From Haloferax denitrificans ATCC 35960 (GTDB lineage: Archaea; Halobacteriota; Halobacteria; Halobacteriales; Haloferacaceae): a stretch of 64,000 bases of DNA. The notes beneath the pieces are model-generated. The model saw only the letters and a program-made list of their open reading frames with translations, did no database searches and was not told the DNA's origin. The DNA lies in the NCBI RefSeq assembly GCF_000337795.1, contig NZ_AOLP01000019.1, positions 310,001-374,000 of the forward strand, written 5' to 3'. Made by a program: the position numbers and the translations under genes. Below, in pieces: positions 44,218-50,322 of this stretch. Numbering within the stretch: position 1 is the stretch's first letter; every line of letters starts with the position of its first letter.

Positions 44218-46899
44218 TCAGTCGTCCGCGAGCGCGCCCTCGATGGTCGGCGCGTCGGTCCGCTCGACCGTCGAGCGGTTCGTCGTCGGGTTCTTCTCCA
44301 CGCGGACGAGGTCGTCGGCCGCGCCGACCAGCTTGTCGTCGTGGCTGACGATGAGAATCTGTTTGACGCCGCGGCTCTGCATGTCCTCGACGAGGTCGAC
44401 CAGCCGCGAGACGTGGCCGTCGTCGAGGAACACCGTCGGCTCGTCGAGGATGAGCGGCGGGAGCGGGGCCGCGCCGTCGATTCCCTCGGCGAGGAGCCGG
44501 TAGATGGCACACCGGAGGCTGAGGTTGAACAGGGCGCGCTCGCCGCCAGAGAGCTGTTCGGGTTCGAGCGCGGTGCCGTCCTTCTGGAACACCGTCAGCC
44601 CGTACTCGCCGTCGAGCCGGATGCGCGAGTAGGCGTCGTTGGCGTAGACGAGGTCGAACGTCTCGTTGAGCATCCGTTCGAGCACCTCGACGTTGCGCTG
44701 GCGAAGCTCCGCCCGGAGGTCGCCGTAGGTCGATTCGAGCGTCGAGACCTCCTCGTGGACCGATTCGAGGGCGTCCACGCGCTCGGAGAGGTGGTCACGG
44801 CGCTCCCGCAGGGCGTCCAACTGTTCGAGTTCGGCCTCGACGCCGCCGACGCGGCTCTGGAGTTCGTCGCGGTCGTCGCGCAACTCGGGAAGCACCTCGT
44901 CTTCGACCCGTTCGAGGTACGCCGCGGCCTTCTGCTTGCGCTGTCTCGCCCCCTCGACCGCCTCTTCGTCGACCGTCTCGCGGAGTTCGTCGCGGCGCTC
45001 GCGACGCTCCCGGAGGTGTTCGCGCCGTTCGCGGTTCACCTCGGCGAGCGTCTCGCGCTTCTCGCGGAGCCGGTCCCGCGTGTCGATTTTCTCGGCCCGC
45101 GCGTCGACCAGCGATTCGACGCGGTCGAGTCGGTCGCGCCGGTCGCCGAGGGCGTCGAGGTCTGATTCGAGCGAATCGACCGTCTCCGCGACTTCCTCGG
45201 CCCGCTCGGCCTGCGTCGTCGCCGCCTCGCGTTTCTCTTCGGCCTCGGTTTCGAGTTCCGCGGCGGCCTCGCGCTTCTCCGCGGCGGCCTCGCGGCGACT
45301 CTCGACGGTCTCCTCGCGGTCGGCGATGCGTTCGTCCACGAGGTCGAGTCTGTCGCGCCGGGAACTCGCGCGGTTCTCGACTTCGACGAGCGCCTCGGCC
45401 GCCTCGACGGCCGCCGAGCGCGACTCGACGTCCGATTCGAGCGATTCGCGGTCGGCCTCCAGCGACTCGACCGCGGCCTCGCGCTCGCTGATGGCGTCGA
45501 CGTGGGGCGAGCCCTCGACCGGCTGTCCGCACTCGGGGCACTTGCCCGCGTCGCGGAGGCGCTCGGCCTCGGCGAGGCGCTCGCGCGCGTTCTTCAGTTC
45601 GGTCTCCGTCTCCGCGAGCGACTCGCGGGCCTCGGAGCGCGCCTCCCGTCGTTGTTCGAGGAGGTCGGCGGCCTCGCCGAGTTCGACGGGGGCGTCTTCG
45701 AACCGCGCTTCGGCGTCGTCGAGCGCCGACCGAAGCTCGGCGCGGGTCTCGCGGAACGATTCGAGCTCGCGCTCGGCCTCGGCGGCGGTCTCCGCGTCGG
45801 CGTCGGCGGCCTCGCGTTTCTCCGCGGCGCGCGATTCGAGGTCGTCGGCGCGCTCTGCGAGCCGCTCGGCCTGCGTCTCGAACGCCTGCGCCCGCGTCCG
45901 CGCCTCCGAGAGGTCGTCGCGGAGTTCCGCCTCGCGCTCCGACAGCGCCTCGCGCGCGTCGGCTATCGCCTCGTCGCTCGCGTCGTCGAGATCGGTCCGG
46001 GCGAGGGCGTCGTCGATGTCCGATTCCAGTTCGTCGGCGGCGGCGTCGAGGTCTCGGATTCGCTCCGAGAGGTCGTCGCGCTTCGTCTCGTCGGCGGAAA
46101 TCTTCTCCGTCAGGTCCTCGATGGCCGCCTCGATGTCGTCGAGTCGCTCCCGCTTTTCGGCGTGTTCGTCGAGCGTCGCCTCGGCGGCGTCGAGCGCCGA
46201 CTTCGCCTTGTCGCGCTGGGACTCGTAGTTCGAAATCTCCTCGTCGAGGGAGTCGAGTTCGGATTCGAGCGCGTTGAGCGTCGCGTGGAGGTCCGCGTCC
46301 TCCTTGGCCTCGATTTGCGACTCGACGTCTTCGAGGACGCTCCGCTTTTTCGTCAGCACGTCTTCGACCCCGAGCCGGGCGTTGCCGGCGCGCTCGCGGT
46401 ACGTTTCGAGCTTCCCGAGCTGGAGGAGGTCGTCTATCATGTCCTGCCGCTGGCTCGGCGTCGCGTTGATGAGCTTGTTGACCTCGCCCTGCTGGACGTA
46501 CGCGCAGTTCACGAACGCCTCGGCGTCCATCCGCAGGAGCGACGCGACGTGCCGGCGAACGTCGCGCGCGCCTTCGACGGTCCCCTCGGGACCTTCGAGG
46601 ACGCACTTCGCGGTGGTCGCGCGGTCGCCAGAGACGCGAATCCGGCGGTCGATGCGGTACTCGCCGCCGTCGTGGACGAATTCGAGCGCGATTTCGGCGT
46701 CGTCCGCGCCCGTCGTCACCACGTCTTCGAGCGTCCCCGCGAGCGCCTTCGAGCCGTAGAGCGCGAAGAAACACGCTTCGAGGAGCGACGACTTGCCACT
46801 GCCGTTGACGCCGTGGATGACCGTGACGCCGTCTCTGAGGTCGAGTTCGGCGTCCTCGTAGGGCTTGAAGTTCCGGATGGCGATGCGGGTGAACCTCAC
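44218..46899 (-). CDS. rad50: DNA repair ATPase Rad50
   Basis: SMC-like ATPase of 893 residues that with Mre11 processes DNA breaks. Walker [10 protein letters not shown] (near 30-38), long antiparallel coiled coils (about 180-440 and 465-720), zinc hook CPEC (about 452-455), signature [14 protein letters not shown] (near 790) and Walker [14 protein letters not shown]. Typical length. Its ATG overlaps the mre11 stop by 4 bases. Confidence 0.96.
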
Positions 46900-48233
46900 G
46901 CGAAATCACCCAGCGAACTGTCGCGGCTCGCCGCTGGCTCCGCGGGGCCCTCCGAGTCGGTCTCGGTCGTCGTCTCGGGGTCGGTGTCGGTCTCGGTCGT
47001 CGCCTCGGGGGCGGTCTCGGTCGCGTCTTCGGCGGTTTCAACGTCTTCAGCGACTGCCACGTCTTCGACGCCCTCCGAATTCTCGTCTTCGTCCTCGGCG
47101 TCGCTCTCGCGCTCGGCGGCGACGAAGGCGTCGGGGTCGTCCGAGAGGAGCGATTCGACGCGCTCGCGCACCTCGTCGCGGACGTTCGAGTCGGCGACCT
47201 TGCTCGCGCGGACCGTCTCGTCCACGTCGAGGGCGGCGCTCGACAGGCCCATCTCGCGGACGCGCTCGCGCACCGCGTCGTCGGGGTCGGCGAAGGTCAC
47301 GTCGGTCGCCAGGTCGGCGTCGTCGTCGATGTCGCGTTTGTCGTTGACGCGGGCGACGAGCGCGCCCTCCTCGACGGCGAACGACTCGACCGCGGCGGGG
47401 GTGACGGTCTCGCCCTCGCCCCGCAGTTCCACGATGACGACCGCGTCTTCGAGGTCGAACTCGCGGACGCGTCGGCGGACGCGCTCGATGCCCTCGTCGC
47501 CGGCGAGGTCGACCTCGACGAACGCGAACGGGCGCGTTTCGAGGGTGCGCCGGCGGATGTCGACCGCGTCGGGCGTGAACTCGATGAGGTTGTACCCGCG
47601 GGGGTCGCGCTCGCTCGCGCTCGCGCGCTCGGTCGACCCGCAGTAGGTCACCCACGTCCCGTCGAGGTCGGCGGTGTCGGGGACGTGGTTGTCGCCGAGG
47701 AGGACCGCGTCGAAGTCGACGTTGGACTCGGCGAGGACGGTTTCCGTCTCCCAGTCGGCGTGCGCGAACGGCGTAAACAGACCGTGGGCGACGAGCACCG
47801 AGCGCTCGGCGTCGGCGGGGTCGAACTGGTAGTCGAGTTCGTCGCGTCGGGAGCGCGGGACGTGGTCGAGGCCGTAGAACGCCACGTCGCCGACGACGTG
47901 GGGGTCGCGCCCCAGTCTCGTCGCCAGCCCGAGGCGCTCGAAGAGGTCGAGCCACTGCCCGCCGCGGGTCGACTCGTGGTTGCCGACGATGGCGAGGAAG
48001 GGAATCCCGGCGTCGTCGAGGCGGCGGAGCGCGGCGAGCGTCCCGAGGAGGTCGGGGAGTTCGGGACGGCGGTCGTGGTAGAGGTCGCCCGCGTGGACGA
48101 CGGCGTCGACGCCTTCGTCGAGCGCGTCCGAGACGACGCGCTCGAAGGCGTCGAGGAAGTCCTGTCGGCGCTCCGGCGAGTGGTACTGCTGATACCCGAT
48201 GTGGGTGTCGCCGGTGTGTATCACCCGTGTCAT
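46896..48233 (-). CDS. mre11: DNA double-strand-break nuclease Mre11
   Basis: Mn-dependent exo/endonuclease, 445 residues. Metal motifs HTGDTHIGY (near 7), HAGDLYHDR (near 48), [10 protein letters not shown] (near 85), and LGDNHVPD (near 178) give the phosphoesterase core to about residue 300. A low-complexity acidic tail of about 85 residues follows ([13 protein letters not shown], then repeated [11 protein letters not shown]), typical of halophilic Mre11 but variable. GTTTTCAG near 48262 is about 29 bases before the ATG. Confidence 0.95.
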
Positions 48234-48304: not shown

Positions 48305-48637
48305 TCACCGCTCGGCGGTGCGAGACGCCCGGTTCGACTCGTCGGTGGCGTCCGCGAGCGCGACGCGGAGTCGGTCGAGGTCCGCGATGAGCGCCCGCCC
48401 CGAACGTGCGCAGTCGTGGTGTCCGCGTCGGGCGGCCTCGCCGACCGCTCGGCGGAGCGTCAGTTCGCCGCCGTCGGAGAGAAAGCGGGCGGCAGAAGAA
48501 AGCGACTGGAAGGCGTCACGCGCGTCGGCGACGACCTCGGCGGGCGGTCGCGACTCGGGTCGGTCGTCGATATCGGCGTCGGCGTCGGCGAGCGCGGAGA
48601 GCGCGCGGCCGACGTCGTCGGGAGCGGGCGAAGACAT
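48305..48637 (-). CDS. hypothetical protein
   Basis: A 110-residue helical soluble protein starting MSSPAPDDVGRALSALADADAD. One cysteine in ARRGHHDCARSGRAL. No known motif. It lies 26 bases after the winged-helix gene on the same strand and 72 bases before mre11, so it may belong to either transcript. Unknown function. Confidence 0.6.
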   Translation of the reverse strand: MSSPAPDDVGRALSALADADADIDDRPESRPPAEVVADARDAFQSLSSAARFLSDGGELTLRRAVGEAARRGHHDCARSGRALIADLDRLRVALADATDESNRASRTAER

Positions 48638-48663: not shown

Positions 48664-48933
48664 TTAAATGTTGAGCGTGTAGAGCCGCTTGCGCGCGTCG
48701 GAGAACGAAAACCGGGAGTCGACCGCGCCCTCGTCTTCCAGCCGGGAGAGCGCGTAGCGGACGGTGCGCGGAGGCAGAAGCGACTCCTCGGCGATTTGGC
48801 TCTGGGTGAGCGTGTCCTCGTAGTCGAGAATCTTCGCGACCAACTTGGCGCTCGGGGGCATGTCTCGAACCGACGCCCAGCGGTCGTCTGCGTCGGGTTC
48901 GGACTCGCGTTCGACTGCTTCCGTAGTACTCAT
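48664..48933 (-). CDS. small winged-helix transcription regulator
   Basis: An 89-residue MarR-like single-domain protein. The helix-turn-helix is LTQSQIAEESLLPPRTVRYALSRLEDEGAV and the wing follows (SRFSFSDARKRLYTLNI). An 8-base inverted repeat with 9-base spacer starts 30 bases upstream, over its promoter, so it probably controls itself and possibly the divergent proteasome-activating ATPase gene. The ATG at 48933 is preferred over 48948. Confidence 0.82.
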   Translation of the reverse strand: MSTTEAVERESEPDADDRWASVRDMPPSAKLVAKILDYEDTLTQSQIAEESLLPPRTVRYALSRLEDEGAVDSRFSFSDARKRLYTLNI

Positions 48934-48962
48934 CGTACGAGACACCAAGCGATGCTATTAGA

Positions 48963-48987
48963 TAATATTTGCTATCCAAAAATATTA
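48963..48987. promoter_or_regulatory. inverted repeat TAATATTT-N9-AAATATTA
   Basis: Perfect 8-base arms around GCTATCCAA, inside the 168-base divergent region between the winged-helix gene (30-54 bases away) and the PAN gene. The position suits an operator for the winged-helix protein. Confidence 0.6.
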
Positions 48988-49072
48988 CTGTAGCGAATTT
49001 ATGTGACGCACGTCAGACTCGTCATCCGGGCGGCAGACGCGTCCTAGGCGGCGAATCCCTCACACACCCGAA

Positions 49073-49082
49073 GCCTCTTATG
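49073..49082 (+). promoter_or_regulatory. TATA-like CCTCTTATGA of the PAN gene
   Basis: CTTATGA about 24-30 bases before the first ATG, implying a leaderless or very short-leader message. Confidence 0.4.
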
Positions 49083-49104
49083 AACCTGCACCCTATGCCG
49101 GATG

Positions 49105-50322
49105 ATGACCGATACTGTGGACGACGTCGATCTCCCCTACGATAAGGACTCGGCGTCGCAGCAGGAGAAGATCACCGCCCTTCAAGAGCGGCTCGAAGTT
49201 CTCGAAACGCAAAACGAGGAGATGCGCGACAAGCTCCTCGACACGAACGCCGAGAACAACAAGTATCAACAGAAGCTCGAGCGCCTTACCCACGAGAACA
49301 AGAAGCTCAAGCAGTCGCCGCTCTTCGTTGCGACGGTTCAGGAAATCACCGACGAGGGGGTCATCATCAAGCAGCACGGTAACAACCAAGAGGCCCTCAC
49401 CGAAGTGACAGACGAGATGCGCGAGGAGCTCGAACCCGACGCGCGCGTCGCCGTGAACAACTCTCTCTCCATCGTCAAGCGGCTCGACAAGGAGACTGAC
49501 GTCCGGGCACGCGTGATGCAGGTCGAACACAGCCCCGACGTGACCTACGAGGACATCGGCGGACTCGAAGAGCAGATGCAGGAGGTCCGCGAGACGGTCG
49601 AGATGCCGCTCGACCGCCCCGAGATGTTCGAGAAGGTCGGCATCGACCCGCCGTCGGGCGTGCTCCTCTACGGCCCGCCGGGCACCGGGAAGACGATGCT
49701 CGCGAAGGCCGTCGCCAACCAGACGAACGCCTCGTTCATCAAGATGGCCGGCTCCGAACTCGTACACAAGTTCATCGGCGAGGGTGCGAAGCTCGTCCGC
49801 GACCTGTTCGAGGTCGCCCGCGAGAACGAGCCCGCCGTCATCTTCATCGACGAGATCGACGCCATCGCCTCGAAGCGGACGGACTCGAAGACCTCCGGCG
49901 ACGCCGAGGTCCAGCGTACGATGATGCAACTCCTCGCCGAGATGGACGGCTTCGACGAGCGCGGCAACATCCGCATCATCGCGGCGACCAACCGCTTCGA
50001 CATGCTCGACCCCGCGATTCTCCGCCCCGGTCGGTTCGACCGCCTCATCGAGGTGCCCAAGCCGAACGAGGACGGCCGCGAGATAATCTTCCAGATTCAC
50101 ACCCGGAAGATGAACGTCTCCGACGACGTGGACTTCGTCGAACTCGCCGAGATGGCCGACAACGCCTCCGGTGCCGACATCAAGGCCGTCTGTACGGAGG
50201 CCGGGATGTTCGCCATCCGCGACGACCGCACGGAGATATACATGCAGGACTTCCTCGACGCCTGGGAGAAGATACAGCAGGAAGCCTCGGACGAGACGGA
50301 AGTCTCCCGCGCGTTCGCGTAA
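49105..50322 (+). CDS. panA: proteasome-activating nucleotidase (PAN)
   Basis: Hexameric AAA ATPase that unfolds substrates for the 20S proteasome. About 405 residues from 49105; an ATG three bases earlier is equally usable. N-terminal coiled coil (about 15-75), OB-like domain (to 150), Walker A GPPGTGKT (near 190), Walker B VIFIDEID, and second region AATNRFDMLDPAILRPGRFDR. The C-terminus ends SRAFA; the HbYX gate-opening motif (hydrophobic-Tyr-any) is not exactly present because Phe replaces Tyr. Haloarchaea usually have a second PAN, not in this window. Confidence 0.95.
   Translation: MTDTVDDVDLPYDKDSASQQEKITALQERLEVLETQNEEMRDKLLDTNAENNKYQQKLERLTHENKKLKQSPLFVATVQEITDEGVIIKQHGNNQEALTEVTDEMREELEPDARVAVNNSLSIVKRLDKETDVRARVMQVEHSPDVTYEDIGGLEEQMQEVRETVEMPLDRPEMFEKVGIDPPSGVLLYGPPGTGKTMLAKAVANQTNASFIKMAGSELVHKFIGEGAKLVRDLFEVARENEPAVIFIDEIDAIASKRTDSKTSGDAEVQRTMMQLLAEMDGFDERGNIRIIAATNRFDMLDPAILRPGRFDRLIEVPKPNEDGREIIFQIHTRKMNVSDDVDFVELAEMADNASGADIKAVCTEAGMFAIRDDRTEIYMQDFLDAWEKIQQEASDETEVSRAFA

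Follow-up and report, generated by a model that had tools for sequence, protein, structure and literature searches.

A 47-bp promoter element shared by a winged-helix regulator gene and the split metE operon of haloarchaea, a candidate operator

The window, a stretch of 64,000 nucleotides of the Haloferax denitrificans ATCC 35960 genome, contains a divergent gene pair, whth and PAN, whose 168-bp gap includes a perfect inverted repeat. The region is organized as follows, with coordinates being those of the window:

44218-46899, minus strand: Rad50, on the same strand as whth and named from its position and the original prediction
46896-48233, minus strand: Mre11, also on the same strand as whth
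48664-48933, minus strand: whth, a winged-helix regulator gene (89 aa, single domain, HTH_24/MarR-like)
48963-48987, no strand: the inverted repeat, whose arms are inner parts of the 47-bp element described below
49102-50322, plus strand: PAN (Pan1), proteasome-activating nucleotidase (NCBIfam NF047748), the divergent neighbor

The repeat is composed of the arms TAATATTT (48963-48970) and AAATATTA (48980-48987) and the spacer GCTATCCAA (48971-48979), and it is located 30 bp upstream of the whth ATG (48933) and 115 bp before the PAN ATG (49102). The perfect arms and nine-base spacer close to the regulator start are thus just as originally predicted; nothing was found to indicate relevance of the Mre11-Rad50 neighborhood, to which the same prediction had drawn attention. 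A 110-aa open reading frame between whth and Mre11 (48305-48637) has no Pfam or NCBIfam match and is detected by tblastn in 14 of 80 loci. By itself, the literal repeat is weak evidence and only mildly unusual. Perfect repeats with 8-bp arms and spacers of 3 to 20 bp arise in 60 of 2,000 dinucleotide shuffles of the 168-bp gap, and 67 of the same kind are present in the whole window. The 8-bp arms are perfect in the window only, with 11 other Haloferax sequences matching 5 to 7 of the 8 positions, and the literal repeat was rejected as the conserved unit.

What is conserved is a longer element, with the following parts:

48952-48998, minus strand: the full conserved element, two 15-bp boxes bracketing BRE/TATA (gene-orientation index -9 to 37, dyad center at 48975)
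48984-48998, minus strand: upstream box ATTCGCTACAGTAAT, consensus AT[TAG][AC]C-N5-G[TG][AC]AT, with invariant AT at both ends
48962-48973, minus strand: BRE-like AGCAA and TATA-like AATATTAT of whth, assigned as a promoter from position
48952-48966, minus strand: downstream box ATTATCTAATAGCAT, overlapping the TATA-box end and the -10 region, at the best direct-repeat offset of 32 bp

The promoters compared are those of the window and of the best 80 of 145 whth relatives found, all of them haloarchaeal orthologues. Each of the 81 has an A-N-TATTAT core near the start codon, with the TATTAT being invariant and located ∼31 bp upstream of the whth start, and the spacing of the element is fixed in 80, with the single exception (L080) having its upstream box shifted by 2 bp. 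An alignment of 70 sites drawn from this set (near-duplicates, L062, and the shifted L080 were omitted) is gap-free over 54 columns in all 70. Positions -9/-8 (AT), 4/5 (AT), 14 (A), 19-20 (AA), 22-27 (TATTAT), 34 (G), and 36/37 (AT) of the profile are invariant or nearly so, positions 16-17 (AG) are strong, and conservation is low outside the element. The BRE-like pattern AG-N-AA and the TATA-like AATATTAT lie between and partly under the boxes, as far from the start codon as expected of such signals, and BRE/TATA/-10 is the most conserved stretch of the element; the invariant AT pairs upstream of the BRE lie beyond the core promoter. A check of conservation upstream of homologues, as called for by the original prediction, therefore has a divided outcome, with the literal arms lost in relatives and the longer element kept in 81 of 81. 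As in autoregulated winged-helix operators, the site adjoins a gene coding for a winged helix, sits on that regulator's core promoter, and is co-conserved with it throughout this set.

The best dyad center of the profile is index 14 (48975), exactly the center of the reported repeat. Using the window and 69 non-Haloferax rows, its score is matched in 1 of 2,000 column permutations at that center and in 40 of 2,000 at any center. When the 69 whth rows are pooled with 55 rows from metE promoters (see below), the dyad score is reached in none of 1,000 permutations and that of the 32-bp direct repeat in 1 of 1,000, and 32 bp is the best direct-repeat offset in both sets alike. The dyad is weaker for the metE sites alone, with 8 of 1,000 permutations reaching center 14; here the upstream box itself (-2) gives the best center, which ranks second for the whth sites. 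A reading as two putative 15-bp boxes, with centers 32 bp apart, accommodates both symmetries and is plainest in one genus, in which the whth promoter (L182) has ATTACTGCAATGCAT ... ATTATCTAAGTGCAT. The downstream box fits the consensus less well because it overlaps the TATA box, and part of its conservation is therefore that of the core promoter. The class-wide footprint, the fixed spacing, and the dyad symmetry support the originally proposed operator as a candidate.

A second target, missed by the original prediction, is metE. A sequence-only model of the 70 whth sites (R1) has two matches in the window's genome, one at whth (E = 2e-9) and one at G000:C11:156871-156909 (E = 8e-4), which directly precedes an operon of two genes. 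The first of them codes for a MetE N-terminal domain (Pfam PF08267) and the second for a MetE catalytic domain (PF01717), with an ATGA overlap, and the operon is, as judged from these domains, a split MetE (methionine synthase). Split MetE is described for archaea in PMC7857596, and nearly all of the Halobacteria examined are reported there to have no other methionine synthase. R1 has matches in 54 of the 60 genomes of a family sample; among 40 checked, which are part of the secondary R1 matches listed for that sample, 32 precede metE, 3 precede whth (the site being weaker in these genomes), and 5 precede neither gene. The element is present at 55 of 58 metE promoters of the family sample, and the three without it belong to three genomes of a single genus (g4). 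The metE promoters of this genus (L143, L144, and L145 of G051, G031, and G003, respectively) share, where the element would be, a different conserved block, GAATAAC..GTGAATC.G.GTTCCGAAAC..ATTAA.

A joint model (R2) built from 36 of the 81 whth sites and 36 of the 58 metE sites finds the whth and metE promoters in the window's genome and no other up to E = 10. In a class sample, R2 has matches in 103 of 106 genomes (E ≤ 0.05), and all 150 matches listed are directly upstream of either whth (70) or metE (80), such that among the matches listed the same element is found nowhere else. Fifteen of 17 further metE promoters score above 20; the two that do not are L216, whose match does not take in the gene start, and L222, in which the left half is lost. 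Rows L205 and L209 of the accompanying list of whth homologues were left out. No Rfam family reaches its gathering score around metE or whth, and a riboswitch upstream of either gene was rejected for this reason. Second whth-like copies in three genomes (G023, G043, and G045) have an R1 match just upstream, as judged by coordinates, and the element is absent from the promoters of the paralogues L082 and L083. L082 (G000:C19:430841-431062) has the relatives L186 to L188, L193 to L195, and L202, and a distinct conserved block, approximately ATATAAGG..TAGTC.CA.GGGTAGACAACCTTTACC, is present in 7 of 10 upstream regions of the paralogue family, with L082, L189, and L190 not having it in that form. 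The upstream sequences suggest that each whth paralogue may have its own operator.

Because all of the listed matches are upstream of whth or metE, the element is best read as a putative shared operator of a two-gene regulon, consisting of whth and the split metE operon, with two promoters per haloarchaeal genome. We assign this a probability of roughly 0.7, a figure that applies to the shared operator and not to its reader. Since the element is confined to these two promoters, it most likely connects the whth regulator with methionine production and not with the adjacent proteasome gene. The sequence, spacing, conservation, pair of targets, and specificity were obtained directly, and we infer from them how the element may act. 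If each of the 15-bp boxes is a dimer site, then with centers 32 bp (three helical turns) apart around BRE/TATA, a pair of dimers bound on one DNA face would sit on and cover the core promoter. A dimeric winged-helix regulator on both boxes would most simply block TBP/TFB, so that occupancy of the element would lower whth and metE transcription in concert, probably in response to methionine supply.

The protein that reads the element is tentatively whth itself or a close paralogue, which is the most likely assignment although we hold it at somewhat under even odds. Whth is predicted to be a single winged helix (AF2 model mean pLDDT, 86.9) whose structural neighbors are MarR-type folds (TMq up to 0.70). 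It scores above the Pfam HTH_24 cutoff (27.2 versus 21.9 bits) and under the gathering scores of MarR_2 (24.4 of 27) and MarR (22.7 of 24.6), with similarity to MarR proteins in fold but not family membership; the TrmB score is also below its cutoff. Autoregulation by whth or a paralogue at the putative operator is plausible, and that by whth fits because its own promoter carries the element. The original proposal of self-control by the regulator is consistent with the location of the element on the whth BRE/TATA, but the element is kept at metE in five genomes without whth. In the class sample, 9 of 106 genomes lack whth at E ≤ 1e-25. G002, G030, G050, G092, and G114, without whth at this threshold, retain a strong element at metE, and that of G127 is degenerate; whth is therefore not required for maintenance of the element, and the sites do not vanish where the regulator is lost. 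It follows that whth cannot be the sole reader in the class and that a paralogue or other regulator must read the element at least in those genomes. The puzzle is thus a site that outlives its most obvious reader.

Three of the nine, G060, G065, and G074, have neither whth nor metE, and this joint absence is a hint of linkage, though two of them are of one genus; G015 and G039 are missing metE and keep whth with its element. G074 nonetheless has one R2 match (E = 5.7e-4), though metE (E ≤ 1e-60) and whth (E ≤ 1e-25) are both absent. In G003, G031, and G051 (one genus, 70 to 80% complete), whth is missing and the metE promoter lacks the element. These three genomes do have an L083-type paralogue, which was rejected on that account as the sole reader, although it may read the element in other genomes.

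A real possibility, which we rate below even, is that a separate regulator, such as a full-length Lrp/AsnC-type amino acid-responsive protein, reads both promoters and whth is merely one of its targets. The intact metE element in two genera without whth would then be explained. Lrp/AsnC proteins bind arrays of 5 + 5 + 5 bp boxes at three-turn spacing, which the boxes of the element resemble. Whth (89 aa) is a winged helix alone, without the C-terminal ligand domain of the Lrp/AsnC family and thus not a member of it; its closest PDB sequences are the 150-aa regulators 2efq and 2efo, which we take to be Lrp type, with weak similarity of the helix-turn-helix (E = 0.002 to 0.004). However, the matches listed are at whth and metE only, with no such regulator gene carrying the element among them, and none resembling one is present in the stretches read beside metE or whth. 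A specialized core promoter, recognized by a particular TBP/TFB pair with upstream contacts and needing no dedicated regulator, would agree with the BRE/TATA/-10 being the most conserved stretch, but is improbable given that the 150 matches listed are at two genes only, that invariant AT pairs lie upstream of the BRE, and that the spacing is fixed in all but one of the 81 promoters.

Two further features of the gap bear on PAN:

49004-49024, plus strand: block TGACGCACGTCAGACTCGTCA, candidate CdrS site of panA, assigned from distance
49066-49080, plus strand: ACCCGAAGCCTCTTA, the promoter element of PAN itself, present in 73 of 81 loci

The original prediction had one small regulator controlling both itself and the proteasome ATPase through the repeat, and the divergent pair is indeed widespread, with 72 of 80 loci having PAN close to whth. 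This arrangement is nevertheless very improbable. PAN has its own conserved promoter, which is 98 bp from the element in the window and 49 to 1,546 bp from the dyad across loci, without constant phase; the element is retained in the 8 loci, of 80, that gave no PAN hit; and six genomes with PAN but not whth lack such a site within the 2.9 to 4.2 kb around PAN. The block at 49004-49024 is conserved, with a few changes, in the 12 Haloferax rows, and a comparable half-site pair is found in none of 69 others. From its distance to the panA transcription start site (TSS), this Haloferax-only block is likely the published panA site of CdrS, a ribbon-helix-helix protein. ChIP-seq in H. volcanii (PMC8406309) mapped CdrS to a position 92 nt ahead of the panA TSS, which also argues against control through the repeat. 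PAN was thus rejected as a second target; it is not supported as one and falls outside the regulatory unit. Last, a chance palindrome in AT-rich promoter DNA, as the shuffles and the perfection of the arms in the window alone might suggest, is refuted for the element by class-wide conservation and the second target and applies solely to the three final bases of the upstream arm, these being variable among Haloferax; the repeat goes beyond chance because the underlying element is conserved, not the literal arms.

The candidate shared operator of whth and metE may be part of a haloarchaeal control system for methionine (or SAM/homocysteine) that is as yet undescribed. In such a system, the single-domain winged-helix protein, whose gene adjoins that of the proteasome ATPase, would be coregulated with the sole methionine synthase operon and would compete or cooperate there with another regulator; in this full form the proposal is possible but unlikely. 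In the literature searched, mainly open-access papers, neither the element nor a regulator of haloarchaeal metE is described. No paper was found for HVO_0851 or HVO_2742, two tentatively assigned locus tags, and a paper on CsmR is, in its accessible part, unrelated. Being confined to two promoters, the 47-bp element offers a precise and testable way into the control of methionine in a class of model archaea.

Several known systems can be compared with this one. SAM riboswitches differ in that no Rfam hit was found around metE or whth. Archaeal winged-helix repressors have autoregulated operators overlapping BRE/TATA, and the likeness extends to a small winged-helix protein with an AT-rich palindrome over the core promoter of its own gene; the differences are the second target, metE, the two boxes 32 bp apart that bracket the promoter, and the putative status of the binder. 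The sites of bacterial methionine regulons differ in architecture from the 47-bp element. Haloferax volcanii has a single-domain TrmB-family regulator, which we take to be the one named OxsR. The OxsR-type regulator, in the portion of PMC9426492 available, is likewise a stand-alone winged helix of a haloarchaeon, but it is a thiol-based oxidative stress regulator, whereas the 89 residues of whth include no cysteine and its TrmB score is under the cutoff. The site that CdrS occupies before panA in H. volcanii (PMC8406309) belongs to the same intergenic region, but CdrS is a different regulator, assigned to PAN and not to whth, with its likely site between the element and the PAN promoter. What the bacterial methionine regulons (MetJ, MetR, SahR, and SAM riboswitches; PMC4239095, in part) have in common with the system proposed here is control of a methionine synthase gene.
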